Source: Streptomyces albogriseolus (lineage in GTDB: Bacteria > Actinomycetota > Actinomycetes > Streptomycetales > Streptomycetaceae). From it: DNA of 64,000 bases. Both the position numbers and the translations under genes were made by a program. Location: assembly GCA_014650475.1 (NCBI GenBank), contig BMVA01000026.1, positions 25,714-89,713 on the forward strand. Reading direction: 5' to 3'. Shown piece after piece: positions 274 through 20,584 of the stretch (positions are counted from its first letter, which is position 1; each line of letters begins with the position of its first letter). The notes beneath the pieces were generated by a model. That model was not told the DNA's origin. It searched no databases and saw only the letters and a program-made list of their open reading frames with translations.

Positions 274-999
274 ATGACGACGATCACCACGCGCACGGTC
301 GAGTACCTGGCCGACGGTCTGACGATGATCGGGCACCTCGCCCTCCCGGCCGGTGCCGATCGCCGGCCCGCGGTGCTGCTCGGGCCGGAGGGCACGGGGC
401 TCAGTGACGTCGAGCGCCGCCGGGCCGACGCGCTCGCCGAGCTGGGATACGTGGCGCTCGCCTTCGACCTTCACGGCGGGCGCTATCTGGACGACCCCGA
501 GGAGATGCTGGCCCGCTGCCTGCCGCTGCTCGCCGATCCCGACCGGATGCGGGACATCGGCCACGCGGCGCTCGACACGTTGCGCGCCGAACCACGGACC
601 GACCCCGACCGGATCGCCGCCGTCGGCTACGGCACCGGCGGCGCGATCGCGCTGGAACTCGGCCGCGCCGGCGTCGACCTGCGCGCGATCGGGACGGTCA
701 ACGGACTGATCACAGGCCGGCCGGGCGAGGCAGCGCGCATTCGCTGCCCTGTGTGGGCCGGGGTCGGATCGGAGGACCCGATCATGCCGCCCGCGCAACG
801 GGAGGCGTTCACCGCCGAGATGCAGGCCGCGGGCGTCGACTGGCGCCTCGTGGTCTACGGCGGCGCCCTGCACGCCTTCCACCACCCGCCGGTCGACCAC
901 ACCACGCTCCCCGGCGTCGGCCACCACCCACGGCACGCGCAGCGCGCCTGGCACGACGTCGTCGGCCTCCTCAGCGAATGTCTGACCTCAGCGGAGTGA
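274..999 (+). CDS. Dienelactone-hydrolase-family protein with an altered nucleophile elbow
   Basis: An alpha/beta-hydrolase fold protein of 241 residues. The ATG at 274 is preferred over an in-frame GTG at 178, because the latter would put the palindrome at 210-236 inside the gene. Family members carry Cys or Ser in a G-x-C-x-G-G elbow and hydrolyse cyclic esters or act as general esterases. Here the elbow reads VGYGTGG, so glycine stands where the nucleophile should be. The other two triad positions look present: Asp in a GSEDP segment and His in GGALHAF near the C-terminus. The protein may therefore be non-catalytic or use another chemistry. No strong ribosome binding site is visible before 274. 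The last 12 bases overlap the end of the convergent LanB-like gene. Confidence 0.7.
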   Translation: MTTITTRTVEYLADGLTMIGHLALPAGADRRPAVLLGPEGTGLSDVERRRADALAELGYVALAFDLHGGRYLDDPEEMLARCLPLLADPDRMRDIGHAALDTLRAEPRTDPDRIAAVGYGTGGAIALELGRAGVDLRAIGTVNGLITGRPGEAARIRCPVWAGVGSEDPIMPPAQREAFTAEMQAAGVDWRLVVYGGALHAFHHPPVDHTTLPGVGHHPRHAQRAWHDVVGLLSECLTSAE

Positions 1000-4787: not shown

Positions 4788-6316
4788 GCGGTGCTCCCTG
4801 CGACCAGGCGTCCGCGGTCCGCCTTGCCCCCACGGGTGGTGGGCAGGGCCGTGTGGCGCAGGAAGCGGCGCGGCATCAGGTGCGGGGGCAGGGTGCGGGC
4901 CAGGTGGCGGCGCAGGGCGGCGTCCGGCGTGGTGTGGTCGCCGGTGACGTGGGCGGCCAGGTACACGCGGCCCCGGTCGTCGGTGTGCGGGGTGACGACG
5001 GCTCCGCTCACGGCGGGGTGGGTGAGCAGCGCGCCCTCCACCTCGGCGGGGTCCACGCGGTAGCCGCGGATCTTGATCTGGCGGTCGCCGCGGCCTTCGT
5101 AGCGCAGCCCCTGCGGGGTCCACCGGCCCAGGTCGCCGGTGCGGTACATGCGGGAGCCGGGCGGACCGTAGGGGTCGGGGAGGAACGCGGCCGCCGTGCG
5201 GGCCGGGAGCCCTCCGTACCCGCGGGCGAGGCCCGTGCCGCCGATGTAGACCTCGCCCACGGTTCCGTCGGGGACGGGGGTCAGGTCGGGGCCGAGGACG
5301 CGGACGGTGGCGCCGGTCCGGGGCAGGCCGACCACGTCGTGGGCCGGGTCGGGGTCCGCCGGGACGTCGTGGCGGGTGGTCGTCATGGTGCACTCGGTCG
5401 GCCCGTACTGGTTGACCAGCCGGCCCGGGACGAGGGACCGGCCGCCCGCGGTGAGGAAGGGCCGCAGGGACTCGCCGCTGGACGCGACGAGGGTGACGCC
5501 GGCCAGCGGGTCGGGCAGGTCGCGCTGTCCGGCGAGGTGGGTGAGGAAGGAAGGGGTGACGCTGAGCAGGGCGGTGACGCCGTGCTCGCGCACCGTGCGG
5601 GCGAAATCGGCGGGGCGCAGCAGCCGCGCGCGCTCCACGAGGACGAGGCGTGCCCCGGCCAGCAGGGGTGCGAAGGTGTCGCGGAGCGAGGCGTCGTAGC
5701 CGAGCGGGGCGGTTTGCAGGACGACGGTGTCCTGGCCGAGCCCGAAGGCGCGGACGGTGTCGCGGAGGTAGGTGTCGAGGGCCTGGTGCTCGACGAACAC
5801 GGGACTCGGCTCGCCGGTGCTGCCGGAGGTGTGGCTGACGTAGGCGAGGGCGTGCGGGTCGACGGCCGCCGGGGAGGCGGAGGTGTCGGCGGCCGTCGGG
5901 TGCCACGCGTCGGCGGCCGTCGCGTCCGGGGCATCGGGGCCCGGGCCGTCCAGCTCGATCACGAGCGTGCCCAGGTCGAGGGCGGCTGCGTGGGCCGTCG
6001 TGGTCAGCAGGAGGCGGGCGCCGGCGCTGCGGACGAAGGAGGCCAGCCGGTCCCGGGGCTGGGTGACGTCCAGCGTGAGGAAGGCGGCGCCGCAGCGCAG
6101 GACGGCCGTCATGGCCGCGACGGCGTCCGGGCCGTGTTCCACGGCGACGGCGCAGACGGTCTCCGGGCGTACCCCGTGGGCGCGCAGCAGCCGGGTCACC
6201 TCCCGCGTCCGCCGGTCGAGCTGCCCGTAGGTGACGGGCCCGTCCGGGGTGTCCAGGGCGATCCGGTCCGGGTGTCGTGCGGCGTGTTCGGCGAGGTCGT
6301 CGGCGAGGGTGCGCAT
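4784..6316 (-). CDS. Stand-alone adenylation (A) domain protein
   Basis: A 510-residue amino-acid-activating domain of the NRPS type with no fused carrier or condensation domain. Core motifs A2-A8 are readable: HTSGSTGEPSP (A3), NQYGPTE (A5), YRTGDLG (A7), GRGDRQIKIRGYRVD (A8), and the A10 lysine in RGGKADR. The A3 loop departs from the usual PKG, reading EPSP, so the phosphate-loop lysine is missing. Reading the specificity positions by alignment to the GrsA and EntF patterns as remembered gives roughly D-A-R-S-A-S-Q-M-T-K, which I cannot assign. It overlaps the LanB2 stop by one base (TGATG) and the PLP gene by ATGA. Its likely partner is the carrier protein at 3487-3744, with MbtH at 8894 as possible chaperone. 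Confidence 0.88.
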   Translation of the reverse strand: MRTLADDLAEHAARHPDRIALDTPDGPVTYGQLDRRTREVTRLLRAHGVRPETVCAVAVEHGPDAVAAMTAVLRCGAAFLTLDVTQPRDRLASFVRSAGARLLLTTTAHAAALDLGTLVIELDGPGPDAPDATAADAWHPTAADTSASPAAVDPHALAYVSHTSGSTGEPSPVFVEHQALDTYLRDTVRAFGLGQDTVVLQTAPLGYDASLRDTFAPLLAGARLVLVERARLLRPADFARTVREHGVTALLSVTPSFLTHLAGQRDLPDPLAGVTLVASSGESLRPFLTAGGRSLVPGRLVNQYGPTECTMTTTRHDVPADPDPAHDVVGLPRTGATVRVLGPDLTPVPDGTVGEVYIGGTGLARGYGGLPARTAAAFLPDPYGPPGSRMYRTGDLGRWTPQGLRYEGRGDRQIKIRGYRVDPAEVEGALLTHPAVSGAVVTPHTDDRGRVYLAAHVTGDHTTPDAALRRHLARTLPPHLMPRRFLRHTALPTTRGGKADRGRLVAGSTA

Positions 6317-8637
6317 CACCGGTCCCCCTCGGCGGTGACGGTCTGGTCGACGGCGACGAAGCGGAGTTCGGAGGTGTAGCGCCGGCCGTCGGTGTCGGTG
6401 AGCCAGGCCTGTTCGGGGGTGGGGAGCATCTCGCTGACCTTCAGCCGGGCGTCCGGGTCGGTACGGGCGAGGCGGCGGGCGGCCTTGGCGAGGATGGTGG
6501 TGTAGACGGGGCTGTCGAAGTCGACGTAGAACGGGCGGGGTTCGGTCGGGGAGACGACGAAGACGAAGCGGGGCAGGTCGTGGCGGCGCTGCCAGTGGCG
6601 GGCGCGGACGAAGCGCGCGGCCTCGGACTTCTCGTCGGCGAAGTCGAGCTCCGCGACGGGCAGTTGCCAGGTCTCGCGGGCCAGGATCATGCGGTCGACG
6701 CTGATGCGGGGGGTGTGGTCGCCCTCGGGGCGCAGGGTGAAGCGGTCCATCACGCGCTGGGTGAGGGTGTTGGCGTAGGCGTCGAGGAGGTCGTAGCGGG
6801 TGCCGTCGGGGAGCCGGACGGTCAGCCTGCCGTCGACGTCCTCCACCGGGACGTCGGCGCCGAGCGCGGTGCGGGGGCGGTGCGGGTCTCCGGTCTGGTC
6901 GACCAGCGCCACGTAGTGGTCCTGGTCGCGGTCGAGGGAGGGGCGGCTGCGGGTGGACCACTTCAGCGGCAGTTCCTTGGCGAGCATGGGCAGCAGCCGG
7001 GGGCCGGGGAAGTCGCGGCCGGTCTCGGCGATCAGCTCGTCGCGGTCGGGGTGCTGGTGGACGAAGAGGGAGGCGCCCATGGTGTTGAGGGCGCTGTGCA
7101 TCTCGCCCAGGACCAGTTCCACGTCCCCGCGGGCCAGCGCCGCCTCGTCCTCGGCGACGACGAGGACGTCGGGGCTGAAGTAGCGGGCGAGCGACCAGCC
7201 GTCGCCGGGCTCGTCGAACTCCTCGCGGACGCGGGCGGCGAGTTCGGCGGTGGTCAGCCGGACACGGCGGGCGCCGGGCGGGATGTCCAGCAACCGGGCC
7301 CATTTGGCGCGCAGTTCGTCCTGGACGGCGTCGATGAGGGCGCCGGCCTCGGGGTGCGGGGAGGGCAGGGTGTGCAGCCACAGGGCGGCGAGGTCGACGG
7401 GGCCGTCGGCGGCGAGCCGGTCGTACACGGCGCGCAGCCGGGCACGGATGCCGTCGGCGAAGCGGTTGGTCATCCAGCGGGCGGCGGTCAGGCACAGCTG
7501 GAGGGGTTCCAGGTGGGCGAGCAGGCCGGGCCCGGCGGTGGCGGTGGCGGCGCGGCGGGTGTCGGAGTAGACGAGTCCGCGGCAGGGGGCGGTCCGGGCG
7601 CCCTTGGCGCGCTGGGCCTCGGCGTCGGTGAGGGCGGCGAAGTCGGCTTCCAGGGCGCCGATGGCGCAGGTCAGCGCCTCGGCGTCGTCGCCCGCGCCGG
7701 CGACGGCGTCGCGCCCGCGCTCCAGGACGGCGAGCTTGGCGAGGGCGCGGTCGCGGGCCTCCTCGTCGGGGACCCGTTCCACGATGGCGCGCAGGGCGCG
7801 GTCGGGGTGGGTGGCCGCGGGCACCTCCAGACGCCAGTGGACCCAGCGCCGGCGGACCAGCTCCCGGACGAGCGCCTCGGTCTCGTCCTCGGTGAGGTCG
7901 CGGGCGGCGGCGATCTCCGGCACCGGGCGGGTTCCGTCGCAGAGCTCCAGGACGGCCGCCTCGCGGTCCGTCATCTGCCGCGCGGGCCGTCCGGGCACGC
8001 GCACGGTAAGGCCGTCGGTGCGGACGAGGGAGACGCGGCGCGGCGGGATCCAGCGCATCAGTGCGGGGTCCTCGGCGAGCACCTTGGCCAGGGCGTCGAT
8101 CGCCCAGCCGGAGAAGTACACGGCGCTCGCGGCGAGGAAGGTGTCTCCGGCGCGGGTGGCGACGGCGTCCGTCGCGGCAAGGTCCCAGCGGCCCCAGCCG
8201 ACAGGGCCGAAGAAGCCGATGGTGTCGTTCTTCACGCAGAACCGCTGCCAGTAGTGGGCGACGAGTTCCTCGCGCTGGCGGGGCATGCTGCTGCGCTTGT
8301 CGGTGTCGGGGTTCCAGCGCAGGAACGGCGCGATGCCGGTGCGGAGCACGGCCGGGTTCTGCCAGGCCAGGGCCGCCTGGAAGCGGGGCCGGGCGGCGAC
8401 CTCCTGGAGGTGGCGGGCGGTGTCCACGGCGGCGGCGGCCAGCTCCTGGGTGAAGCCGTCCCACTCGGGGCCGGTGAGCGGGGCGCCGGGGGTGAACTTG
8501 TCGGCCGCCTCGGCCAGTCCGGGAGGGGCGAGGCGCAGCACGCCGTCGGCCGGGAAGCCCGGACCGCGCAGCGCGAACTGTTCCCACAGCCGCCAGCCTC
8601 CGCCCGGCAGCAGGACAGGTGCGTGCTCGTCCGACAT
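6316..8637 (-). CDS. Short LanB-like protein 2 (lantibiotic dehydratase N-domain family)
   Basis: 773 residues, first gene of the operon. It is collinear with the protein at 988-3336 from an N-terminal FALRGPGFPADGVLRL block through KNDTIGFFGPVGWG to the C-terminal EMLPTPEQAWLTD and RRYTSELRFVAVD, so the pair arose by duplication. As in the paralogue, the C-terminal glutamate-elimination domain of full LanBs is absent. Known biochemistry for short family members is tRNA-dependent acyl transfer, either glutamyl to Ser/Thr side chains or amino acids to a peptide C-terminus. A GGAAGGAG ribosome site lies before the ATG. The start is 256 bases from the divergent mbtH gene, so the promoter for the whole operon should lie between them. 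Having two copies suggests two separate transfers or two substrates. Confidence 0.8.
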   Translation of the reverse strand: MSDEHAPVLLPGGGWRLWEQFALRGPGFPADGVLRLAPPGLAEAADKFTPGAPLTGPEWDGFTQELAAAAVDTARHLQEVAARPRFQAALAWQNPAVLRTGIAPFLRWNPDTDKRSSMPRQREELVAHYWQRFCVKNDTIGFFGPVGWGRWDLAATDAVATRAGDTFLAASAVYFSGWAIDALAKVLAEDPALMRWIPPRRVSLVRTDGLTVRVPGRPARQMTDREAAVLELCDGTRPVPEIAAARDLTEDETEALVRELVRRRWVHWRLEVPAATHPDRALRAIVERVPDEEARDRALAKLAVLERGRDAVAGAGDDAEALTCAIGALEADFAALTDAEAQRAKGARTAPCRGLVYSDTRRAATATAGPGLLAHLEPLQLCLTAARWMTNRFADGIRARLRAVYDRLAADGPVDLAALWLHTLPSPHPEAGALIDAVQDELRAKWARLLDIPPGARRVRLTTAELAARVREEFDEPGDGWSLARYFSPDVLVVAEDEAALARGDVELVLGEMHSALNTMGASLFVHQHPDRDELIAETGRDFPGPRLLPMLAKELPLKWSTRSRPSLDRDQDHYVALVDQTGDPHRPRTALGADVPVEDVDGRLTVRLPDGTRYDLLDAYANTLTQRVMDRFTLRPEGDHTPRISVDRMILARETWQLPVAELDFADEKSEAARFVRARHWQRRHDLPRFVFVVSPTEPRPFYVDFDSPVYTTILAKAARRLARTDPDARLKVSEMLPTPEQAWLTDTDGRRYTSELRFVAVDQTVTAEGDR
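8183..8332. repeat. Near-identical 150-bp segment shared by the two LanB-like genes (copy 2)
   Basis: Direct-repeat partner of 2891-3040. The low number of third-position changes suggests gene conversion or strong constraint at this site. Confidence 0.8.
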
Positions 8638-8893
8638 CGCGTGCTCCTTCCGGAAAGGGGGTGCGGGGAGGCGACCGGCCCCGGGGCGGACGGTGGTCCG
8701 CCCCGGGCTCGCCGGGTTCTCCGGCCGGACAGCACGGTCCCGCGCGGCGGGGGCGGGCCGACAGAGAAGATCCGGCAGCAACACGTGCCGCAGGGTCGGC
8801 GTGTTCGTCCCTGACCTCGGTGTGCGGGCCCGGTGCACGCTGTCGGCGCCGGCCGTGACCTGCGGCCGGCCCATCACCCGCGGGAGGTTCACC
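8638..8893. promoter_or_regulatory. Divergent intergenic region between LanB2 operon and mbtH
   Basis: 256 bases separate two divergent starts, so at least two promoters should lie here. I see no confident -10/-35 pair or long palindrome. It contains no open frame with a convincing start. The GGGAGG at 8882-8887 is the ribosome site of mbtH. Confidence 0.4.
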
Positions 8894-10079: not shown

Positions 10080-10202
10080 TTGGCATCTCCTCGGAGCCGT
10101 GCGCAAGCGCCCGGGCGCCGCTCCCCGAGAGGTCCGGCCCGCGCGCCGCCTTCACGGACAACGCACGCCTTCCACCGTGGCGACCGGGATACGATCACGC
10201 CC

Positions 10203-10937
10203 GTGACAGCGCCCGAACCCACCATCGTCGCCACCTCAGGCGGCTTCCGCCCCGGCCGACGTACACGGGTGCTCTTCGACGCCCTGGTGCACCACGCGGT
10301 CGACCTCTCCGGCGTGCACGGCCGACGGCCGCGCGTCCTCCATGTAGGGACGGCGGCGGGCGACGCCGAGATGGTCGCGGCACGGGTCTCCGAGGCGGCC
10401 CGGGTGGCGGGCTACGACCTCACTCCGCTCCAGCTGTTCCCCATGCCCAACGTCGAGGACGTCGAGGCCACGGTGCTCGACCACGACGTGGTGTGGGTGG
10501 GGGGCGGTTCGGTGGCCAACCTGCTCGCCGTGTGGCGGGTCCACGGCCTGGACGCGATCATGCGGCGCGCCTGGCGGTCCGGGGTGGTGCTCGCCGGGGT
10601 GAGCGCCGGCTCCATCTGCTGGTACCAGGGCGGCACCACCGACTCCTTCGGCCCCGACCTGCGCGCCGTCACCGACGGACTCGCGCTGCTCCCCTACGGC
10701 AACGGCGTCCACTACGACTCCGACGAGGGCCGCCGCCCGCTGCTCCACCGGCTGGTCGCCGACGGCACGTTCACCGAGGCCCACTGCACCGACGACGGGG
10801 TGGGCCTGGTCTACCGCGGCACCCGACTCGTCGAGGCCGTGGCGGAGTTGCCGCGCAAGGCGGCGTACGTGGTGCGGCGGGAAGACGGCCGGGCCGTGGA
10901 GGAGCGGATCGAGCCGCGTCTGCTTCCGTCGGCGTGA
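10203..10937 (+). CDS. Peptidase E-like serine dipeptidase (family S51)
   Basis: A 244-residue peptidase-E/cyanophycinase-type protein. The nucleophile elbow is GVSAGSICWYQGG, where the Ser of SAGS is the catalytic residue. WVGGGSVANLLAVWR is the preceding conserved strand-loop. The GTG at 10203 is favoured because homology begins directly with TIVATSGGF, and the longer frame upstream is Arg/Pro-rich shadow sequence. S51 enzymes cleave Asp-X dipeptides or related small peptides in the cytoplasm. It follows a strong terminator, so it has its own promoter, and is convergent with the LuxR pair. A role in peptide-leader turnover is possible, but general peptide metabolism is as likely. Confidence 0.85.
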   Translation: MTAPEPTIVATSGGFRPGRRTRVLFDALVHHAVDLSGVHGRRPRVLHVGTAAGDAEMVAARVSEAARVAGYDLTPLQLFPMPNVEDVEATVLDHDVVWVGGGSVANLLAVWRVHGLDAIMRRAWRSGVVLAGVSAGSICWYQGGTTDSFGPDLRAVTDGLALLPYGNGVHYDSDEGRRPLLHRLVADGTFTEAHCTDDGVGLVYRGTRLVEAVAELPRKAAYVVRREDGRAVEERIEPRLLPSA

Positions 10938-11095: not shown

Positions 11096-11740
11096 TCAGA
11101 CCAGGCCCTGGCGAACCGCGTGGGCGACCGCGTGGGCGCGGTTGCGGGCCTGGAGCCGGGTCATCAGCTCGTAGATGACGTTCTTGACGGTGTGTTCGGA
11201 ACAGCCGAGGAGCAGCGCGATGTCCGCGTTGCCGTGGCCCTCGGCCATGAGCCGCAGGACGGACGTCTGCCGTGCGGTCAGGACCGGCGGTCTCCGGCGG
11301 GCCGGACCGTCCGCACGGCCTCGGGTGCTCAGCGCTCCGGACAACTCCGGGTAGGGGATGCTCGGATGGGGGTACGCGGCCCGGTGGACGGCCCTGAGCA
11401 GGCTCTCCTCGTCCAGTTCGGCCGCGCCGATGACGACCGCTCCGGCGCGCAGGATCCGCCGCCGGTCCTCGGGGGCGACGCTGTCGCAGACGAACAGGAC
11501 GGGCCCGGGCGGGCGCGGCGCGCGCAGCGCCTGGTCCGCGTCGGCGGCGACGAGCACGGTGACCGTGGCGCAGGGGGCCGGCTCGTCGGCGGCGGACCGG
11601 AGGCCGGCGCGTTCGGCGAGCGCGCGGACCCGTTCCGCGCCCGGCGCCGGCACGACCCGCACCACGACGGCGGGGGCGGTCGTGACCGTGGCGCCGGAGG
11701 ACGTCGCGGTGACGGGCGACGCCGTCAGGGTGGCGGTCAC
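11096..11740 (-). CDS. LuxR/NarL-family regulator, second gene of a coupled pair
   Basis: 214 residues. The C-terminal 65 residues form a LuxR helix-turn-helix: LTARQTSVLRLMAEGHGNAD, then GCSEHTVKNVIYELMTRL. The N-terminal half resembles a receiver-like fold but shows no obvious phospho-acceptor aspartate pocket, so it is probably an orphan or ligand-controlled regulator. The GTG start overlaps the preceding stop (GTGA), so it is made with its partner at 11737-12351. Both C-termini share RNRAHAVA, so the two are related and may form a heterodimer. The pair is divergent from the LanM gene, the usual position for its controllers. Confidence 0.85.
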   Translation of the reverse strand: MTATLTASPVTATSSGATVTTAPAVVVRVVPAPGAERVRALAERAGLRSAADEPAPCATVTVLVAADADQALRAPRPPGPVLFVCDSVAPEDRRRILRAGAVVIGAAELDEESLLRAVHRAAYPHPSIPYPELSGALSTRGRADGPARRRPPVLTARQTSVLRLMAEGHGNADIALLLGCSEHTVKNVIYELMTRLQARNRAHAVAHAVRQGLV

Positions 11741-12351
11741 AGCAGGCCCGCCCGGAGCGCGTAGGCGACCGCGTGGGCGCGGTTGCGCAGCCGGAAGCGC
11801 TGGGTGATGTCGTGCACGACGGTGGTGACGGTGCGGGGCGAGTAGGCGAGCCGCTGGGCGATCTCCGCCGTCTCGTGGCCGTCGGCCACCAGACGCAGCA
11901 CCGACCGTTCCCGCTCGGACAGCATGCCCTCGCTCCAGCCGCCGCCGGAGCCGCGCACGGGAGCTTCCGGCTGGTCCAGCAGCTCCTCCAGCAAGCCGGG
12001 GGGCAGGGTGCAGTCGTCGCGCGCGGCCGCCAGCACCGCGTGGGCGAGGCGGGAGGCGTCGGCCTCGCGGCGCAGCAACAGGCCCCGGGCGCCGGCGGCA
12101 AGGGCGTGCAGGACGTCTCCGGAGGCGAGGGCGCCCGCGACCAGGACGACGGCGGGGCGGTGGGGCTGGGTGCGGGTGGCGCGCACCGTGTCCAGCTCGG
12201 CGGGGCCGAGGCGGTCGACGGTGAGGACGGCGACCCGCGCGTCGGCGGGCTCGCACACGGTCAGTTCGGGCCGGACGAGCAGGGTCGCGCGGATGCCTGC
12301 CTCCAGCACCGGGTCGAGTGCGACCACACTGACAGGTACGGGTGCTCCCAT
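11737..12351 (-). CDS. LuxR/NarL-family regulator, first gene of a coupled pair
   Basis: 204 residues with a receiver-like N-terminal half (VSVVALDPVLEAGIRATL then AGARGLLLRR) and a C-terminal LuxR DNA-binding domain (LSERERSVLRLVADGHETAE, SPRTVTTVVHDI). The ATG at 12351 follows an AAGGAG ribosome site at good spacing. Aspartates typical of phosphorylated receivers are not clearly in place, suggesting an atypical response regulator without a partner kinase; none is encoded nearby. It is transcribed away from LanM across a 404-base gap that holds an inverted repeat at 12693-12749. Control of the LanM/peptide genes is inferred from position. Confidence 0.85.
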   Translation of the reverse strand: MGAPVPVSVVALDPVLEAGIRATLLVRPELTVCEPADARVAVLTVDRLGPAELDTVRATRTQPHRPAVVLVAGALASGDVLHALAAGARGLLLRREADASRLAHAVLAAARDDCTLPPGLLEELLDQPEAPVRGSGGGWSEGMLSERERSVLRLVADGHETAEIAQRLAYSPRTVTTVVHDITQRFRLRNRAHAVAYALRAGLL

Positions 12352-12755
12352 CTGCTGCTCCTTGGAGGTTCGTGCGCCCCTTCGACTGAGCGGGCGGTCT
12401 GGCGTGGGGACTCGGGAACACCGTGCCGCCCCCGTGACCGCCGGGGCATCGGTAGACGGACCCCACATTTGCGCGCCGGGCGCGCCCGGGTCGTGGGGGT
12501 GGGGCGGGCGGTCGGGCGGGGAGCGACGGCCCGGTGGGGGCCCAGAGGCGGCGCCGACCGGCCCTCCGGGGTGGGCATGGGGGGCGCGCACCCCTCCGGG
12601 TACCCGTCCCGTGCCCGCACGGCCCGTCGCGTCCGCGGGCCGCGCGTCACGCGTGCCCGTAGGGGATGCCCTCCCCTCCGCGGTTTCTCGTGCCGTCCCC
12701 CATGCCCCCCGCCCGTGGGGAGGGGGCCGGGGGAGAATATGGGGGACGGTTACCC
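12352..12755. promoter_or_regulatory. LuxR-LanM intergenic region with 11-bp inverted repeat
   Basis: The 404-base gap between divergent starts has no credible gene. CCGTCCCCCAT at 12693-12703 is matched perfectly by ATGGGGGACGG at 12739-12749, with 35 bases between the arms. The second arm lies just before the chosen LanM start and overlaps its ribosome site. The wide spacing would suit two separately bound dimers or a looped arrangement by the two LuxR proteins. A promoter was not recognised with confidence. Confidence 0.5.
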
Positions 12756-15700
12756 ATGTGGGGGGCGCGGGAGGTCTGGGACCTTTTTCCCGTGACCGAC
12801 ACCGCCAGCCTCCCGACCTCCCGGAGCACCGGACTCCCCGCCGCCTGGTGGGCCCCGGCGCTGACCCTCGCAGAGCGGCTCGCCGCCCCCGGGCTCCCCG
12901 GGCCGGCCGCCGCGACCGGCGCCGCCGGGCCGCTGCCCTGGACGGTCGGCGACGCGGAGGGCTTCGCCCTGCGGCTGGACCGGCTGGGTGTGGACGGCGC
13001 CACGGCGGCGGCCCTGGCCGCCGAGCCCGCGGAGCGTCTGGCGGAGCGGGCCGTCGAGCCCGACTGGGCGTCGTACGCGGAGGAGGTGCTGGCCGCGGCC
13101 CCCGAGGGGCTGCCGGAGGTCGAGGTCGGCGGCGAGGGTCCCGACGCGTTCGCGCCGGCCGTGCGCCCGCTGGTCGCCATGGCCGCCGCCCGCCTCGCGG
13201 ACCGGACGGCCGGCGTCCCGGACGCCGAGGCCACCGTGTGGCGGGACGCGTTCACCCGCCGTCTGACCCACCAGCTGGTCCGGCTCGCCGCCCGCACGCT
13301 GGCCCAGGAGCTGCACCGGGCCCGGCGCTCCCGGCGCCTGGCGGGCGCCGGCCCGCGCGAGCGGTTCGCCTCCTTCGTCGCGGCGGCCGGCACCCGGCGC
13401 GGACTGTCGGACCTGTTCACCGCCTACCCGGTCCTGGCGCGGATGCTGAGCCGGACCGCGCTGGACGCGACGGAGGCCACGGCCGAACTCGTCGCCCGCT
13501 TCCGGTCCGACCGCGCGGACCTGGTCGCCGCTCTCCTCGACGGCCGGACGCCGGGCCGGCTGGTCCGCGTCGACCTCGGCCGCGGCGACGCCCACCAGGG
13601 CAACCGGTCGGTGGCGATCCTGCACTTCGCGGACGGCCGCCGCCTCGTCCACAAGCCCCGTCCGCTCGACCAGCACGCCCTCCTCGACGACCTGGTCTGC
13701 TGGCTCAACGCGAAGGTCCCCGGTCTGGGCCTGCGCACCCCGCGCACGCTGCGCCGGGAGTCCCACGGCTGGCTGGAGTTCGTCGAGCACCGCTGGTGCT
13801 CCTCGGTGACGGAGACCGACACCTTCTACCGCCGCCAAGGCGCCCTGCTGGCCCTGCTGTACGCGGTGGACGGCGCCGACATGCACTACGAGAACGTCAT
13901 CGCGTACGGCGACCAGCCGGTCCTGGTGGACGCCGAGACGCTGCTGCACACCGGTCTCGGCCAGGCCCTCACGGCGGGCGCCGACCCGGCGGCGGACGCG
14001 CTGGCCGCCTCCGTCCACCGCACCTGCCTGCTCCCGCACCTGCTCATCGGGGAGCACGGCGCGCTGGACATCTCCGCGCTCGGCCGGGACACCGACGGCA
14101 CCTTCCCCAGCGAGGGCCTGCGCTGGGAGGACAGCGGACTGGACACCATGCGGGCGGTGCGCGGGCCGCTGGCCAGCCCCGCCGCCCAGAACCACCCGCT
14201 GCCGCACGGCACTTCCCTCTCCGTCACCGACCACACGGCGGCCCTGCTGGAGGGGTTCCGCGCCGCCTACGCGGCGATCGCCGCCCACCGCGGCGAACTG
14301 GTCGGCGATGACGGCCCGTTGACCCGCTGGGGCGACCGTCCGGCGCGGCTCATCGCCCGTGCGACCCGGCTGTACGCCACCCTGCTGGAGGAGTCCACCC
14401 ACCCCGCGCTGCTGGGCGACGCCCTGGCCCGGGAGGGGGTGTTCGCGGTGCTGTGGTCGGAGTCCGCGCAGGACCCGGCGCGCGAGCGGCTCATCGAGCA
14501 CGAGACGGCGGCGCTGTGGCGCGGTGACGTCCCCTTCTTCACCCACCGGCCCACCGGCACGGCCGTGATCGCCGACGGCGGTGCCCGCGTGCCCGACCTC
14601 CTGCCGGTGGCCGCCGTGACCGCGGTGCGCGAGAAGATCGGCCGCATGGACGAGGTCGACTGCCTCGACCAGGAGTGGATCATCTCGGCCACCCTCGCGG
14701 TGCGCGGGGCGAGTTCCCCGCCGGACCGCCCCCGGTCGGAGCTGGCACCGGCCCCCGTGCCGCCGGTGGCGCCGGACCCGTCCCGGCTGCTCGCCGCCGC
14801 CTGCGGGATCGCCGACGAGATCGCGGCCCGCGCGGTCCGCGGCGGCACCCGCACCAACTGGATCGGTCTGGAACGGGTGTCGGGCGACCACTGGGCCGTC
14901 CTGCCGATGGGGGCGGGCCTGGCCCAGGGCTACTGCGGAGTCGCCCTGTTCCTCGCCCACACCGAGGCGCTCACCGGCTCGGGACGCTACGGCGCGGCGG
15001 CCCGCGAGGCGGTGCGTCCGCTGCCGGCCCTGCTCAAGGCGCTCGCCGAGGACCCCCAGCTGAGCGAGGCCGCCGGCCCCGGCGCCTACGACGGACTCGG
15101 CGGGATCGTGTACGCCCTGGTCCGGCTGGCGGGGCTCCTCGACGAGGGACTGCGGGCGTGTCTGCCGGACGCGCTCACCGCCCTGGGACACGCGGCGGCG
15201 GCCTGCGCCGACCCCGGTCTGGCCCAGGGGCGGGCGGGAGCCCTGGCCGCCTCGGTCGCCGCGTACGAGGCCACCGGTGATCCGGCGGCGCTGCGGCTGG
15301 CGGACCAGGTCGCGGACCTGCTGCTGGTGCAGGCGCTCGGGGAGGGCCCGGTCACGCCCGGCGTGGCCGGTTCCGGCCTCCCGTCGTCCGCCGGTTTCGC
15401 CGACGGCGCCGCCGGCATCGCCTGGGCGCTGCGGCGCTACGCGGGCCACCGCCCCGAGCGCGCCGCCCACGCCGAGCGCACGGCCGTCGCCCTGCTGGAC
15501 TCCGGTGCGCGCCACGGCGATCCGGCGGACCTGTCCTGGTCGCACGGGCTGGCCGGACGGGCCGTCGCCGGGCTGCCGAACCCGGTCGGACCGCCGGACG
15601 ACGCGAGCCTGTTCGAAGCCTCCGTGCGGCTCGCGGACGCGCCCATCGGTCCCGACCTCAGCCTCGCCCAGGGCGTCCTCGGCCGGCTGGAGGCCCTGAC

Positions 15701-15926
15701 CGTCCTGGCCGGGCAGGGCGACAGCACGGCCCGTTCGGCGCTGCGACGGCACACCGGTCACGTCCTCGCCCTCGTCGAGGCACAGGGCCACCGCTGCGCC
15801 ACCCCCGACCACGTCCCCTCCCCCGGTCTGCTGACCGGCCTCGCCGGCATCGGCTACGGACTGCTCCGCCTGGCCCACCCCGGGACCGTCCCGTCGGTCC
15901 TGCTCCTGCACCACCCGGACCACTGA
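12756..15926 (+). CDS. LanM-type bifunctional lanthipeptide synthetase with a degenerate cyclase zinc site
   Basis: About 1056 residues. Residues 190-690 form the kinase-like LanM dehydratase, which phosphorylates and eliminates Ser/Thr in a precursor peptide. Its catalytic motifs are intact: GDAHQGNRSV (D278, H280), HKPRPL, GADMHYENVI (375-380) and VDAETLL (D392). Residues 740-1050 are the LanC-like cyclase with its (alpha/alpha) motifs GAYDGLGGIVYAL, GFADGAAGIAWAL and GLLTGLAGIGYGLL. The zinc ligands are gone: the W-C-x-G motif reads WSHG (Ser929) and the L-C-H-G motif reads LAQG (Ala971-Gln972). The start is uncertain; ATG 12756 has GGGGGA nine bases upstream, while GTG 12792 and ATG 12666 are alternatives. 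A candidate substrate follows at 16060. Dehydration without zinc-assisted thioether formation is the simplest reading. Confidence 0.9.
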   Translation: MWGAREVWDLFPVTDTASLPTSRSTGLPAAWWAPALTLAERLAAPGLPGPAAATGAAGPLPWTVGDAEGFALRLDRLGVDGATAAALAAEPAERLAERAVEPDWASYAEEVLAAAPEGLPEVEVGGEGPDAFAPAVRPLVAMAAARLADRTAGVPDAEATVWRDAFTRRLTHQLVRLAARTLAQELHRARRSRRLAGAGPRERFASFVAAAGTRRGLSDLFTAYPVLARMLSRTALDATEATAELVARFRSDRADLVAALLDGRTPGRLVRVDLGRGDAHQGNRSVAILHFADGRRLVHKPRPLDQHALLDDLVCWLNAKVPGLGLRTPRTLRRESHGWLEFVEHRWCSSVTETDTFYRRQGALLALLYAVDGADMHYENVIAYGDQPVLVDAETLLHTGLGQALTAGADPAADALAASVHRTCLLPHLLIGEHGALDISALGRDTDGTFPSEGLRWEDSGLDTMRAVRGPLASPAAQNHPLPHGTSLSVTDHTAALLEGFRAAYAAIAAHRGELVGDDGPLTRWGDRPARLIARATRLYATLLEESTHPALLGDALAREGVFAVLWSESAQDPARERLIEHETAALWRGDVPFFTHRPTGTAVIADGGARVPDLLPVAAVTAVREKIGRMDEVDCLDQEWIISATLAVRGASSPPDRPRSELAPAPVPPVAPDPSRLLAAACGIADEIAARAVRGGTRTNWIGLERVSGDHWAVLPMGAGLAQGYCGVALFLAHTEALTGSGRYGAAAREAVRPLPALLKALAEDPQLSEAAGPGAYDGLGGIVYALVRLAGLLDEGLRACLPDALTALGHAAAACADPGLAQGRAGALAASVAAYEATGDPAALRLADQVADLLLVQALGEGPVTPGVAGSGLPSSAGFADGAAGIAWALRRYAGHRPERAAHAERTAVALLDSGARHGDPADLSWSHGLAGRAVAGLPNPVGPPDDASLFEASVRLADAPIGPDLSLAQGVLGRLEALTVLAGQGDSTARSALRRHTGHVLALVEAQGHRCATPDHVPSPGLLTGLAGIGYGLLRLAHPGTVPSVLLLHHPDH

Positions 15927-16059: not shown

Positions 16060-16272
16060 ATGGACCAGCACCTCGCCGCCGCCGACTCCGCCGAGTTCAC
16101 CGCCGTCGAGTCCGCCGAGACGCACACCGAGCGGGACGTCGTGGGCGGCATCACCCTCTCCGGCCGCAACCGCGCCTGCGCCCGCGCCCGGGTGCTGGCC
16201 GGCATGGTCCTCACCAGCGGCATCGTCATCACGCTGAGCAGCCTCGACACCTCGGTCTCCGCCCCCAACTGA
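16060..16272 (+). CDS. Candidate RiPP precursor peptide for the LanM
   Basis: A 70-residue peptide, ATG preceded by AGAAGGG at good spacing, 133 bases after LanM and in the same direction. Residues 1-30 are acidic and end in a double-glycine-like DVVGG, as in many LanM leaders. Residues 51-70 are dense in dehydratable residues (T52, S53, T58, S60, S61, T64, S65, S67). The only cysteine is C40, between Arg residues and outside this tail. A hydrophobic run at about 45-60 could also be a membrane segment, so a small membrane protein is an alternative. It matches no lanthipeptide core I know. A hairpin terminator follows. Confidence 0.6.
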   Translation: MDQHLAAADSAEFTAVESAETHTERDVVGGITLSGRNRACARARVLAGMVLTSGIVITLSSLDTSVSAPN

Positions 16273-16403: not shown

Positions 16404-19319
16404 ATGCGTTCCCATGCGCCTTCCCTGGTCGGGCGGGACCTCCACCTCACCCAGCTCGAGCGCTCCCTGGCCGACGCCAGGCAGGGCATGGGCAGCGTCG
16501 TCTTCCTGGTCGGCGAGGCCGGGGTCGGCAAGTCCCGGCTCGCGGCGGAGGCGGTGGGCCAGGCCGTGGGCTCCGGGATGCGGGTGCTGCGCGGCCGGAG
16601 CAGCACCACCGGTCCCGCCGTGCCGTTCCGGCCGCTCACCGAGGCGCTGATGTCGCTGTTCCGCGGCGGCGATCCCATGGACGACCTCGCGCTCGGCCCC
16701 TACCGTCCGGTGCTGGGGCGGCTGATCCCGGACTGGGACACCGGGGAACGCGACAGCACGTCCATGGTCATCCTCGGCGAGGCCGTGCTGCGGCTGCTCA
16801 TCGCGGCCGGCCGCGGCCAGGGGCAGCTGCTGCTCCTGGAGGACCTGCACGACGCCGACCCCGAGACGCTCGGCGTCCTGGAGTATCTGGTCGACAACCT
16901 GGCCTACACGCCCGTGCTGCTGGTGGCGACGGTGCGCACCGACATCAGCGACGCGCTGGACCTCGCGCAGTCGGCCCGCCGCCGCGGGGCCGCCACCGTG
17001 GTGGAACTGCCGCCGCTGTCCCGGCCGCAGGTGCACGAGATGGTCGCCGCCCAGCTCGGCGTGGACAGCCCCGGCGACGTCCCCGCCGAGGTCCTCGACC
17101 GACTGTGGGAGGACAGTGCGGGCAGCCCTTACCTCGTCGAGGAACTGCTCCAGTCCATGATCGGCTCGGGCACCCTGGTGCAGGGTCCCGGTGGCTGGCG
17201 TGCCGTCGGCGATCCGCGCCGTGACGTTCCCTCGACGCTGGCGCGCGGCATCCTGCGCCGGATCGACCGGCTCGGCGCACAGGGGCTGACGCTGATGTCG
17301 GCCGCCGCGGTCCTGGGCCGCCGTTTCCCGCTCTCGGTGCTCCAGCGTGTCACCGGGGTCGACGACCGGACCCTGCTCGGCCATCTCCACGCCGGTGTCG
17401 CCGCCCGCCTGGTGGTCCCCGACGAACCCGCGCCCGACTGGTACTCCTTCCGCCACTCCCCCACGCTGAAGGCCCTGTTCACGCACATGACGCCGGGCCG
17501 GCGCGCGGAGCTGGCCCGGCGCGGCGCCCAGGCCGTGGAAGAGCTGCACCCGGCGCTGGAGGGCGACTGGTGCGCGCTGGCGGCCGGTCTGCGCTGCGAG
17601 GCAGGCGACCGGGTCGAGGCGGGGCTGCTCTACGCCGACGCCGGTGGTCGCGCCCTGGCCGCGGGCGCCCTGAACTCGGCGGTGACCCTGCTCAGCCGGG
17701 CCGAGTCGCTGCTCGCCGAGGGCGGCGATCCGCAGGCGCGGGCCGCCGCCCTGGAGAACCTGCTCCCCGCGCTCGCCGAGGCCGGCGACTTCGCGCGCGC
17801 CTTCGACCTGGCCGACGACCTGCACGCGCTCGGCGGCGAAGGGCTGAGCCCCGTCCGGCTGGCGACGCTGCACGCCCGGCTGGCCAAGGTGGCGCACACG
17901 GCGGGGCGGTGGAGCGACGGCAACCGGCAGGTCGACCGCGCCCGCGAGGTGCTGGCGGGCACCCCCGACGAGGCCACCGCGGCGGCCGTCGACGTCACCG
18001 CCGCCTACCTCGCCCTGGACACCCCCGGCCCCGACCGGACCCAGCACGCGGAGAAGCTGGCACGTTCCGCCGCCGACACGGCCGAGCGCCACGGGCTGCC
18101 GATCGTCGCCTGCCAGGCCTGGGAACTGCTCGCCACGGTCGCGCGCGAGCGGGATCCGCAGGAGTCGGAGGCCATGCTCGGACAGGCGATGTCCGCGGCC
18201 GAGCGGCACCGGCTGCCGTTGCAGCGCATGTACGCGGCGACCCGCATGGGCGGCAACGCCTGGCTGGCCGAGGGCGACACCGGCGGGCTGCTGTCGGCCC
18301 GTGCGGAGGCGCTGCGGCTGGGCTCGGTGAACATCGTGCACACCGTCGACGGCATCCTCGTCCTGGACGCCGTGCTGCGCGGCCGGGACGACGTGGCGCG
18401 TTCCGCCGCCGCGGAGTGCCTGGCCGTCGTGCGCCGGCTGCGGATGGCCCCGGCCGTGCGGTACGTGGTGATGGCGCAGGCGACGCTGGAGGCCCACCGC
18501 GGTGACCGGCAGGCCATGGAGGCGACGCTGGCGGCGTTCACCGAGTGGGACGGGGCCGGTTCGCAGGAGGAACCGCTCACCCGGGGCCTGGCGGGCGCGT
18601 TCTGCGCGCTGCTCGAGGAGAACCGGGAGCTGGCCCGCGAGGAGCTGGCGGCGGTGCAGGCCATGGAGGCGGACAACCCCTCCACCTACCATCTCGGCGG
18701 CACCCACGGACTGGGGCTCCTGCTGGACGTGCTGGAGGGTGACGCCGACCGGGCCCGGCACGCGGAGATCACGGCGACGGCGATGGCCCGCATGCGCTGG
18801 AACCGGCAGTTCGTCCACCTCGCCGAGGCGGTCCTGCTGGGCCGGGAGGGGGCCGGCGCGGACGCGGCGGCCGCCGTGGAGCGGGCGCTGGCGGCGGCGG
18901 AGCCGTATCCGCTGGCCCAGCACCTGGGGCTGCGGCTGGTCGCGGACGCCGCGCACCAGGACGGCTGGGGCGATCCGGTGGGCTGGCTGCGGCGCGCCGA
19001 ACACCACTTCCACGAGCGGGACATCGCGGCCGTCACCGGCGCCTGCCGGGCGGGGCTGCGCCGTCTGGGCGCCCCGGTGCACCAGCACCGCAGCGGCACC
19101 AGCGGCATTCCCGAGCAGCTGCGCACGCAAGGGGTGACGGTCCGGGAGTTCGACGTGTTCCGGCTGCTGGCGGAGCGGCTCAGCAACAAGGACATCGCGG
19201 ACCGGCTGTTCATCTCGCCCCGGACGGCGGAGAAGCACATCGCCAGCCTGATCACCAAGACGGGGGCGGCCAACCGCGCGGACCTGTGCGCGCGGTCGGC
19301 CGCCCTGCGCTCGGGCTGA
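16404..19319 (+). CDS. LAL-family (large ATP-binding LuxR) transcriptional activator
   Basis: 971 residues. The N-terminal AAA/STAND ATPase has Walker A GEAGVGKSRLA (about residues 30-40) and Walker B LLLLEDLHDAD. A long TPR-like helical region follows, and the C-terminus is a LuxR helix-turn-helix (VREFDVFRLLAERLSNKD then SPRTAEKHIASL). LAL proteins are typical pathway-specific activators of large polyketide and NRPS clusters. It sits beside and convergent with the MFS-P450-NRPS genes, with only 17 bases between stops, and directly after the LanM unit, so it could control either. The ATG at 16404 leaves only a short gap from the upstream hairpin. No clear ribosome site is visible, and leaderless initiation is possible. 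Confidence 0.92.
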   Translation: MRSHAPSLVGRDLHLTQLERSLADARQGMGSVVFLVGEAGVGKSRLAAEAVGQAVGSGMRVLRGRSSTTGPAVPFRPLTEALMSLFRGGDPMDDLALGPYRPVLGRLIPDWDTGERDSTSMVILGEAVLRLLIAAGRGQGQLLLLEDLHDADPETLGVLEYLVDNLAYTPVLLVATVRTDISDALDLAQSARRRGAATVVELPPLSRPQVHEMVAAQLGVDSPGDVPAEVLDRLWEDSAGSPYLVEELLQSMIGSGTLVQGPGGWRAVGDPRRDVPSTLARGILRRIDRLGAQGLTLMSAAAVLGRRFPLSVLQRVTGVDDRTLLGHLHAGVAARLVVPDEPAPDWYSFRHSPTLKALFTHMTPGRRAELARRGAQAVEELHPALEGDWCALAAGLRCEAGDRVEAGLLYADAGGRALAAGALNSAVTLLSRAESLLAEGGDPQARAAALENLLPALAEAGDFARAFDLADDLHALGGEGLSPVRLATLHARLAKVAHTAGRWSDGNRQVDRAREVLAGTPDEATAAAVDVTAAYLALDTPGPDRTQHAEKLARSAADTAERHGLPIVACQAWELLATVARERDPQESEAMLGQAMSAAERHRLPLQRMYAATRMGGNAWLAEGDTGGLLSARAEALRLGSVNIVHTVDGILVLDAVLRGRDDVARSAAAECLAVVRRLRMAPAVRYVVMAQATLEAHRGDRQAMEATLAAFTEWDGAGSQEEPLTRGLAGAFCALLEENRELAREELAAVQAMEADNPSTYHLGGTHGLGLLLDVLEGDADRARHAEITATAMARMRWNRQFVHLAEAVLLGREGAGADAAAAVERALAAAEPYPLAQHLGLRLVADAAHQDGWGDPVGWLRRAEHHFHERDIAAVTGACRAGLRRLGAPVHQHRSGTSGIPEQLRTQGVTVREFDVFRLLAERLSNKDIADRLFISPRTAEKHIASLITKTGAANRADLCARSAALRSG

Positions 19320-19336
19320 ACGGGCCGAGGGCGGGT

Positions 19337-20584
19337 TCAGCGCATCTCCCGCACCGCCCGGGATCCGAGCACCGCGAGCCCGGTGACCGCGAGGACCGCG
19401 GCCACGACCCCGAACAGGGCGAGGTGCCCCGTCCCGGCGAGGGCGCCGCACAGGATCAGCGACAGGGGGGCGGCGGCGTAGCCGAGGACCATGTCGACGG
19501 AGACGACGCGGGTGAGGACGTCCTGCGGGATGTTGCGCTGGATCCAGCTCAGTCCGAACACGCCCTGGTAGCCGATGGCGAAGCCCATGGCGAGGACGGT
19601 CGCGATGACGACCGGGGTGTTCTGGGCGAGGCCGAGGACGGCCATTCCGGCGCCCAGCCAGCCGGCGAGGCCGGCGACCAGGAGGCCGACGCGGGGCCGT
19701 CCGCCGACCGCCCCGCCGACGAGGGTGCCGAGGACAGCGCCGCCGGCCAGGGCGCCGTTGAGGACGCCGAGGGTGGCCGAGCCGCCGCGCAGCACCTGGT
19801 CGGCGAGGGTGGCGAAGCCGACCGTGAAGGGGCCCGCGTAACAGAAGTTGACCGCGGTGTCGAGGGCGACGACGGTGCGCAGACGCGGGTCGCGCAGCGT
19901 GAAGGTGACGCCTTCGCGGATGCGGGCGCCGAGGGAGGGCCCCTTCTCCTCCGGCGTGGCCTTGGGCGCGTCGGGGCGGGGGCGGGTGCGGATGCGGGCG
20001 ACGCACAGTCCGCACAGCGCGAAGCAGACGGCGTCGACGAGGAAGGCGACCGGCGCCTCGGTGAGTGCGATGACCGTGCCGCCGACGGCGGGGCCGAGGA
20101 CGGCGGCGGTGCGCGCGCCGGCGCCGAGCAGGGCGTTGGCCGGGGCGAGCAGGTCCTCGTCGACGACCGACGGCAGGATGGAGACGCGGGCGGGCTGGAA
20201 GAAGGCGTCGACGGCGCCGAACGCGGCGGCCGCCGCGCACAGCATCCACACGGTGAGGTGTCCGGTGAGTCCGGCGATGCCGACGGCGGCCATCAGGGCG
20301 CTGCGGGTCCAGCTGGAGGCCACCATGAGGGTGCGGGTGGACCAGGTGTCGCCGAGGGTGCCGCCGACCAGGGTGAGCAGGGCGCGGGGCACGGCCTGGA
20401 AGGCCAGGACGTAGCCCAGGGTGAGGGTGGAGCCGGTCAGGCTCAGGGTGATCCAGGAGAAGGCGACGACGGTGAATCCGTCGCCGAGCAGGGAGAGCGC
20501 CTGCCCCGTCCACAGCAGGCGGAAGGAACGGTGCCGGGCGGGCGCCCACAGCCGCGGGCGGTCCGCGGCGAGGGTCGTGGCCAT
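19337..20584 (-). CDS. MFS transporter, likely product exporter
   Basis: A 415-residue major-facilitator protein with about 12 hydrophobic segments. It opens with FRLLWTGQALSLLGDGF, the pattern of the enterobactin-exporter-like (MFS_3) subgroup, and has the GGTLGDTWSTRTLM loop 2-3 region. A basic cytoplasmic loop at roughly residues 200-215 (RIRTRPRPDAPK) divides the halves. It is the last gene of the NRPS-NRPS-P450-MFS set, 35 bases after the P450, with an AGAGAGG ribosome site. Proton-driven export of the peptide product, giving self-protection, is the probable role. Its stop faces the LAL gene. Confidence 0.9.
   Translation of the reverse strand: MATTLAADRPRLWAPARHRSFRLLWTGQALSLLGDGFTVVAFSWITLSLTGSTLTLGYVLAFQAVPRALLTLVGGTLGDTWSTRTLMVASSWTRSALMAAVGIAGLTGHLTVWMLCAAAAAFGAVDAFFQPARVSILPSVVDEDLLAPANALLGAGARTAAVLGPAVGGTVIALTEAPVAFLVDAVCFALCGLCVARIRTRPRPDAPKATPEEKGPSLGARIREGVTFTLRDPRLRTVVALDTAVNFCYAGPFTVGFATLADQVLRGGSATLGVLNGALAGGAVLGTLVGGAVGGRPRVGLLVAGLAGWLGAGMAVLGLAQNTPVVIATVLAMGFAIGYQGVFGLSWIQRNIPQDVLTRVVSVDMVLGYAAAPLSLILCGALAGTGHLALFGVVAAVLAVTGLAVLGSRAVREMR

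Follow-up and report, generated by a model that had tools for sequence, protein, structure and literature searches.

The stretch of DNA analysed here, called the window below, comprises 64,000 nucleotides from Streptomyces albogriseolus (contig BMVA01000026.1, positions 25,714 to 89,713), and the subject of this work is a lanM gene located at positions 12756..15926 of its forward strand. It is followed on the same strand by a gene encoding a probable precursor peptide of 70 residues (16060..16272) and by a gene for a LAL-type regulator (16404..19319), in which Pfam detects an AAA_16 domain and a LuxR helix-turn-helix. The LanM protein has 1056 residues; according to its translation, Pfam and a structural model, it includes a DUF4135 dehydratase domain (residues ~160-640; 386.7 bits) and a LanC-like cyclase domain (~690-1050; LANC_like, 70.5 bits). 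With the NCBIfam model for LanM, TIGR03897 (cut-off 304), the whole protein reaches 644.9 bits, as compared with 47.8 bits for the class III model. The AlphaFold2 model has a mean pLDDT (predicted local distance difference test) of 87, with values of 84-92 for the blocks 921-940 and 961-980, and its best matches in the PDB as detected with Foldseek are LicM2 (6st5, E 2.6e-40) and CylM (5dzt, E 2.0e-35). Judged by these features, the protein is by descent a class II lanthipeptide synthetase, an enzyme in which a DUF4135 dehydratase and a LanC-like domain form one chain. The gene is plasmid-borne in three Streptomyces records (CP042595.1, NZ_CP139176.1 and NZ_CP023408.1; 99, 98 and 73% identity, respectively), and translation may in fact begin around 12792, since the RefSeq ortholog on NZ_CP139176.1 starts twelve codons further in.

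The prominent feature of this enzyme is the loss of the zinc site of its cyclase domain. In CylM the zinc ligands are Cys875, Cys911 and His912 (PMC4550811, in the passages cited here). As the preliminary description of the locus had stated, and as translation and alignments confirm, the window LanM has Ser929 (15540..15542) in place of the first cysteine of the W-C-x-G motif, in the context SWSHG, and Ala971-Gln972 (15666..15671, i.e., 15666-15668 and 15669-15671) in place of the Cys-His pair of C-H-G, in the context SLAQG. A fourth change, absent from that description, is found by reading of the alignments: Asp883 (15402..15404) lies near the column of His212 of NisC, which corresponds to His835 of CylM in the literature passages, so that this histidine would not be kept.

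To place these changes among relatives, a scan of GTDB genomes yielded 58 loci, of which the distant partial L058 and L059 were dropped, leaving 56 loci and the window (57 in all); gene calls in the relatives come from a codon-bias caller and their starts are rough. The contigs of L022 and L042 end before the zinc site, and in L056 this region is not in frame, hence 51 zinc-less rows (the window and 50 loci) are readable; the second piece of L044, which is split in two frames, is counted among these and omitted from the count of columns, which has 50 rows. Other omitted rows are L109 (short, with an unreadable zinc site), L146 (no LanM in the stretch) and L067 (no tree distance from L025). The full Cys-Cys-His triad is present in none of the 51 readable rows, and it is found in the three sister loci L054, L055 and L057. 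By record title nearly all the zinc-less loci belong to Streptomyces or Streptacidiphilus, L029 being titled only Actinobacteria. Within the 50 rows, cysteine occurs once at position 929 and never at 971, histidine appears at 972 in 13 rows and at 929 in 11, and column 883 holds Asp in 27, His in 10, Glu in 8 and other residues in 5, whereas in other LanMs it holds His in 21 of 30 rows. The window's Ser-Ala-Gln state is common to S. werraensis (L003) and S. althioticus (L012), which makes a local sequencing error very unlikely, and this explanation was rejected. Positions 929 and 930 are within the most variable 7% of the cyclase columns and stand between W928, G931 and G973, which are invariant. 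The motifs of the LanC fold around the zinc positions are therefore kept, as previously described, and in these alignments the frame of the fold is maintained while the ligand positions drift. The earlier view that the changes are not random decay holds for the gene, which is not decaying; the zinc positions themselves look released. Three further LanM relatives without the usual triad (L077, L082 and L083) are placed on the tree away from the zinc-less clade, which suggests repeated loss of the site.

The dehydratase domain is complete. The window LanM has D278, H280, K300, D375, H377, E379, N380, D392, E394, R531, R535 and T537. According to a phmmer alignment to 5dzt, D278 and H280 (13587..13595) align with Asp252 and His254 of CylM, and R531 and T537 (14346..14366) with Arg506 and Thr512, the four residues reported for phosphate elimination in the cited part of PMC4550811. 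No variation was found at D278 and H280 in the 49 zinc-less rows that could be read at these positions, at the six residues of the kinase/dehydratase motif from D375 to E394 (13878..13937) in 50 rows, or at R531 in an alignment of 45 sequences; of all the dehydratase positions scored in the 50 zinc-less rows, T537 (49/50) was the only one that varied. The dehydratase residues noted previously as being in place are thus also fixed, or nearly so, in the relatives. The ratio of nonsynonymous to synonymous polymorphism (pN/pS), from 250 random pairs of 47 rows, is 0.48 for the dehydratase, 0.62 for the cyclase and 0.75 for the N-terminus, and the ratio of cyclase to dehydratase protein distance has a median of 1.45 over 1222 of the 1225 zinc-less pairs. 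For 17 zinc-bearing pairs the same ratio ranges from 0.65 to 1.49, with a median of 1.02 and 15 of 17 values at or below 1.11; these are the pairs under the distance limit, with L077, L082 and L083 left out, and given that pairs share branches the comparison is a description and not a test. These values support an intact LanM under purifying selection, whose cyclase domain, by the same figures, is relaxed but not free of constraint.

The probable precursor peptide, which the preliminary description did not mention, belongs to a family that was detected in the window and in 49 zinc-less loci, out of 50 whose contigs extend far enough to include its gene; the contigs of L022, L042 and L043, among the 53 loci of the zinc-less type, end too soon to judge. 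Since L035 carries two copies (13346-13567 and 16773-16979, of which one is separated from lanM by the LAL gene and adjoins a non-ribosomal peptide synthetase, NRPS), the 49 loci contribute 50 peptides and the window brings the number to 51. Two copies are also present in genome G660. In L015, L018, L044 and L056 only a far copy was found, beyond the LAL gene and on the opposite strand. The RefSeq label of the peptide gene on plasmid NZ_CP139176.1 is 'hypothetical protein', and pN/pS over 42 C-terminal codons is 0.32. It is probable, from gene order and conservation, that the peptide is the substrate of the window LanM. It carries a leader-like motif, DVVGGITL (16135..16158; family form D[AP]AGGITL), that resembles the [HN]PAGxIEL found beside other LanMs; precursors next to zinc-bearing LanMs have NPAGSIEL, HPAGVIEL, HPAGDID and HPAGTVDL (L091, L093, L094 and L096). 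This is followed by C40 (16177..16179), the only cysteine of the window peptide, which is located near the leader motif in a basic stretch that precedes a hydrophobic segment of 17 residues, VLAGMVLTSGIVITLSS (16192..16242; Kyte-Doolittle mean 1.89). The peptide ends in DTSVSAP, and T64-S65-V66-S67 (16249..16260) are the predicted dehydration sites. In the clade, D-T and V-S of this tail are present in 51/51 peptides and the intervening serine in 50/51 (L036 reads DTQVS); T52-S53 is also invariant. Members of the family differ in the length and sequence of the N-terminus, in contrast to the last ~40 residues, which are nearly fixed. The number of cysteines is exactly one in 50 of the 51 peptides and two in L052. 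It had been suggested to check whether the precursors of such LanMs lack cysteine; the answer is divided, as the last 20 residues are free of it in 51/51 peptides, whereas one cysteine, at the place of C40, is kept in 51/51.

The relation between tail cysteines and the zinc triad can be followed outside the zinc-less clade. In the sister group L054, L055 and L057, in which the triad is present, the peptide tail has T[TS]CC at the place of the window's T-S-V-S (3/3). A search with the window peptide of 392 genomes of the genus returned 42 with a match, that by reading of the list were split into 22 of the window type (E <= 1e-17), 10 distant (E 5e-11 to 1.3e-5) and 10 chance-like (E 2.9e-4 to 9e-4). 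The last group, with open frames of 473-531 residues, looks like chance, a similar match in the window's own genome (L113) being located inside a gene of 451 residues. All ten distant loci encode a LanM together with a peptide that contains TTVS close to its C-terminus, and none has a tail cysteine; the LAL gene adjoins LanM or peptide in nine of them, and the contig of L104 is too short to show it. An intact triad is seen in the nine readable LanMs of this TTVS type, L109 being too short to read. Their peptides are cysteine-free in L103, L105 and L106, have a single far N-terminal cysteine in L107 and L108, and carry one at the place of C40 in L109-L112 (one each) and L104 (two, one of them there). 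Likewise L061 and L063, the LanMs of L090 and L089 from two further genomes of the genus, combine the triad with a cysteine-free peptide ending in WTTM. In an IQ-TREE phylogeny of 41 rows, restricted to dehydratase columns, 21 of the 51 zinc-less rows were included and form one clade with support 100/99, which is included in a group of 30 rows (100/99) that all lack tail cysteines; the TTVS rows with a triad do not form one clade and branch off around the zinc-less clade. Given this nested position, the tail cysteine was absent before the triad was lost. A simple coupling of the two losses was rejected, as the TTVS-type enzymes have the triad but no tail cysteine; equally, the CC of L054, L055 and L057 cannot be taken as surely ancestral, because among the rows scored the tree has a single change of tail state, and this change may have been a gain. 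In triad-bearing relatives with cysteine-free tails, these combinations hint that the zinc site does something else. An order-wide search with the peptide matched 26 of 293 genomes; of ten stretches fetched, several from the same species as earlier loci, nine hold a LanM, in each case zinc-less and accompanied by a similar peptide tail, and the tenth is without LanM. In one other family, weak matches were obtained in 2 of 250 genomes, and the two stretches fetched (L147 and L148) showed no LanM.

The LAL family is present in 53 of the 57 loci, including the window and the three sister loci, and the remaining four contigs extend no more than 1.6 kb from lanM; the strict order LanM, peptide and LAL on one strand is observed in 44/57. 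Upstream, a pair of divergent LuxR-type regulators is encoded on the reverse strand (11096..12591; 11096-11740, and 11737 to 12327 or further, as the starts are unsure), a family present in 43/57 loci. Near this pair, a peptidase S51 gene (peptidase E-like; 10080-10934, forward strand), with relatives in 28/57 loci, is a possible candidate for the processing enzyme. Other frequent neighbours are adenylation/NRPS (47 of 57), major facilitator superfamily transporters (38) and cytochromes P450 (38). No NRPS was seen in the stretches examined of L103 and L105-L108, and the module thus probably occurs with more than one type of cluster. The NRPS cluster of the window also includes two LanB-like proteins on the reverse strand (988-3336 and ~6316-8640), with a Lant_dehydr_N domain in Pfam and no NCBIfam match, whose orthologs on NZ_CP139176.1 are both named 'lantibiotic dehydratase' in RefSeq; neighbouring genes encode a carrier protein, an enzyme for adenylation and one resembling threonine dehydratase. 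A similar LanB-carrier-NRPS set is found beside the LanM module in L054. YcaO was not found on the window's contig (C26), and the three matches of the genome are on contigs C43, C14 and C13; for YcaO, the scan covered this genome and not the neighbours of the other loci. In L089, a gene on the reverse strand (17911-19899) adjoining the triad-bearing LanM, the cysteine-free peptide and the LAL gene matches a kinase domain in Pfam at 32.2 bits, just above the cut-off of 31.7; no LANC_like match was detected in it at E 1e-5, and it is possibly LanKC-like.

On balance, we favour the explanation that this enzyme is a LanM that works only as a dehydratase, with the LanC domain as a scaffold and a product that would contain dehydrobutyrine (Dhb) and dehydroalanine (Dha) but no thioether ring. 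LanM would probably bind the neighbouring peptide through the D-x-x-G-G-I-T-L leader motif, phosphorylate and then eliminate threonines and serines of the tail, T64, S65 and S67 first and perhaps T52 or S53, so that the modified peptide would end roughly in Asp-Dhb-Dha-Val-Dha-Ala-Pro. With the zinc site lost and no thiol in the tail, no ring would be formed. The LanC domain may have been retained as a scaffold or a substrate-binding part that is needed for dehydration. In this regard, zinc-ligand mutants of lacticin 481 synthetase reportedly keep dehydration, to judge by the title of the paper concerned. In CcaM, a cyclase domain that lacks the zinc ligands is required for dehydration, as stated in the part of PMC10676384 considered here. 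As for the function, a tail that is nearly invariant next to an N-terminus free to vary makes it more likely that the peptide acts on a conserved partner than that it is a fast-diversifying antibiotic. Most such precursors show the reverse, with a variable tail and an N-terminus that is not free. The prediction of the preliminary description, an enzyme that forms dehydroamino acids but makes no rings by the zinc route, is in line with the complete dehydratase, the absence of the triad from every readable member of the clade and the tails without cysteine, and is only partly supported in view of the retention of C40.

Several other observations weigh against this interpretation. The invariance of C40 in the zinc-less clade is the first, and this residue could still count as a core cysteine, depending on where the leader ends. 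In L006 (13111-17177), lanM and the LAL gene are present and no peptide of the family was detected in a stretch of 17 kb, even with a looser search. A C39 leader protease is not present on the window's contig, the single match of the genome being on another one. Finally, L107 and L108 keep the full triad with cysteine-free tails on a long branch (stem of 0.78 changes per column), and L061 and L063 also pair the triad with cysteine-free peptides; from the long-branch enzymes it follows that loss of cysteine alone does not explain the decay of the zinc site.

The conservation of C40 leads to a first alternative, in which the LanC domain closes a ring without zinc, between Cys40 and a dehydrated serine or threonine such as T52 or S53. 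A precedent exists in ThurKC, a class III enzyme that has Ser, Phe and Asp for the triad and still forms rings, and the peptide family provides the partners, given that C40 and T52-S53 are both invariant. Nevertheless, the replacing residues matter in ThurKC (for both points, the cited passages of PMC10604976), yet the three positions vary widely here; C40 belongs to the basic region close to the leader motif and not to the tail; and homologous systems do without it, because three of the ten TTVS-type peptides (L103, L105 and L106) are cysteine-free and two more (L107 and L108) have only the far N-terminal one, although the other five (L104 and L109-L112) do possess it. We consider metal-free ring closure unlikely, but worth keeping in mind.

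A second alternative starts from the gene order. LanM and the peptide, modified or not, could serve the LAL regulator, the peptide being a signal or a membrane sensor that switches the adjacent cluster and not a secreted product. The frequency of the LAL gene, which also follows lanM and the peptide in L054, L055, L057, L089 and L090, agrees with this idea, as do the differing gene sets beside the module (an NRPS in L054, a polyketide synthase in L057 by Pfam, and an acyl carrier protein (ACP)-synthase-III gene in L055), the nearly invariant tail with its variable N-terminus, and the hydrophobic segment. A regulatory role has been described for the LanM-like CA_C0082 of Clostridium, though that protein also lacks the dehydratase residues (PMC10301443, in part). 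However, adjacency is not interaction, and pathway regulators beside biosynthesis genes are ordinary, and this possibility is likewise considered unlikely. It can be combined with dehydration: LanM might write Dhb and Dha into a membrane-seeking peptide that acts on the LAL protein or another fixed partner to control the NRPS cluster, the loss of the ring being part of this change, and the zinc site of triad-bearing relatives with cysteine-free tails may have served to add an outside thiol to the dehydro residues. This proposal is speculative and we think it doubtful. A metal site rescued by other residues such as histidine is very improbable, for in spite of the histidines found at 929 and 972, and of L032 and L138, which read His-His-His, the pattern differs among near relatives of L032 (His-His-Arg in L029, L034 and L040; His-His-Ser in L047) and the window has Ser-Ala-Gln. 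It is just as hard to believe that the protein is a pseudo-enzyme on its way out: a ratio of cyclase to dehydratase distance above that of most zinc-bearing pairs, the broken or short frames of L044, L056 and the TTVS-type L109, and the missing peptide gene of L006 would fit, but LanM is full length in most loci, the dehydratase is invariant, the peptide tail nearly so, and pN/pS is below 1 in every domain.

If the dehydratase-only interpretation is correct, these loci may represent a natural series for a two-step enzyme that loses one step, in which tail thiols are absent first, the metal site is lost later and the scaffold is kept. They would also provide, from 50 genome records, a collection of LanMs that probably act only as dehydratases and could be used to introduce dehydro residues where no ring is wanted. 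In databases the name given to these proteins is 'type 2 lanthipeptide synthetase LanM', though probably no lanthionine is made, and searches that require a core cysteine, a rule given in the cited part of PMC7268733, would miss the peptide if its cysteine were counted as part of the leader. A literature search with little coverage of subscription journals returned no description of this LanM family, of its peptide, or of the sequence in which thiols and zinc site disappeared.

Zinc-less LanMs as a category, and cysteine-free LanM precursors, are already known from the passages of the papers cited below. The LanM-like proteins of the CA_C0082 group of Clostridium also lack the zinc ligands and are adjoined by regulators, but they are shorter (670-728 residues) and have lost the dehydratase residues that the window LanM keeps (PMC10301443). 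The 'D-Unk' class falls in the same category, with DUF4135, an undefined cyclase triad and 47 predicted peptides, which may or may not include those of the present family; zinc-less LanMs had thus already come up in computational work, and the passages on this class give no order of loss (PMC11251773). Clusters with both LanM and LanKC, whose LanM precursors lack cysteine (PMC7268733, PMC11251773), are a further parallel, and L089 may be one of them; L061 and L063 keep the full triad, unlike the window LanM. In class III, LanKC cyclases such as ThurKC have the LanC fold without zinc ligands, with the difference that their dehydratase consists of a kinase and a lyase and that rings do form (PMC10604976). 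There is also a likeness to the LanMbC dehydratases, e.g., CcaM of the dehydrazoles, where DUF4135 is combined with a LanC-type domain without zinc ligands and dehydro residues are made; CcaM differs in its class III cyclase domain, its YcaO clusters, the restriction to serine before an azole and the absence of a leader (PMC10676384). Unlike CcaM, the clade of the window LanM is nested among zinc-bearing LanMs, which may speak against a cyclase domain of the class III type.

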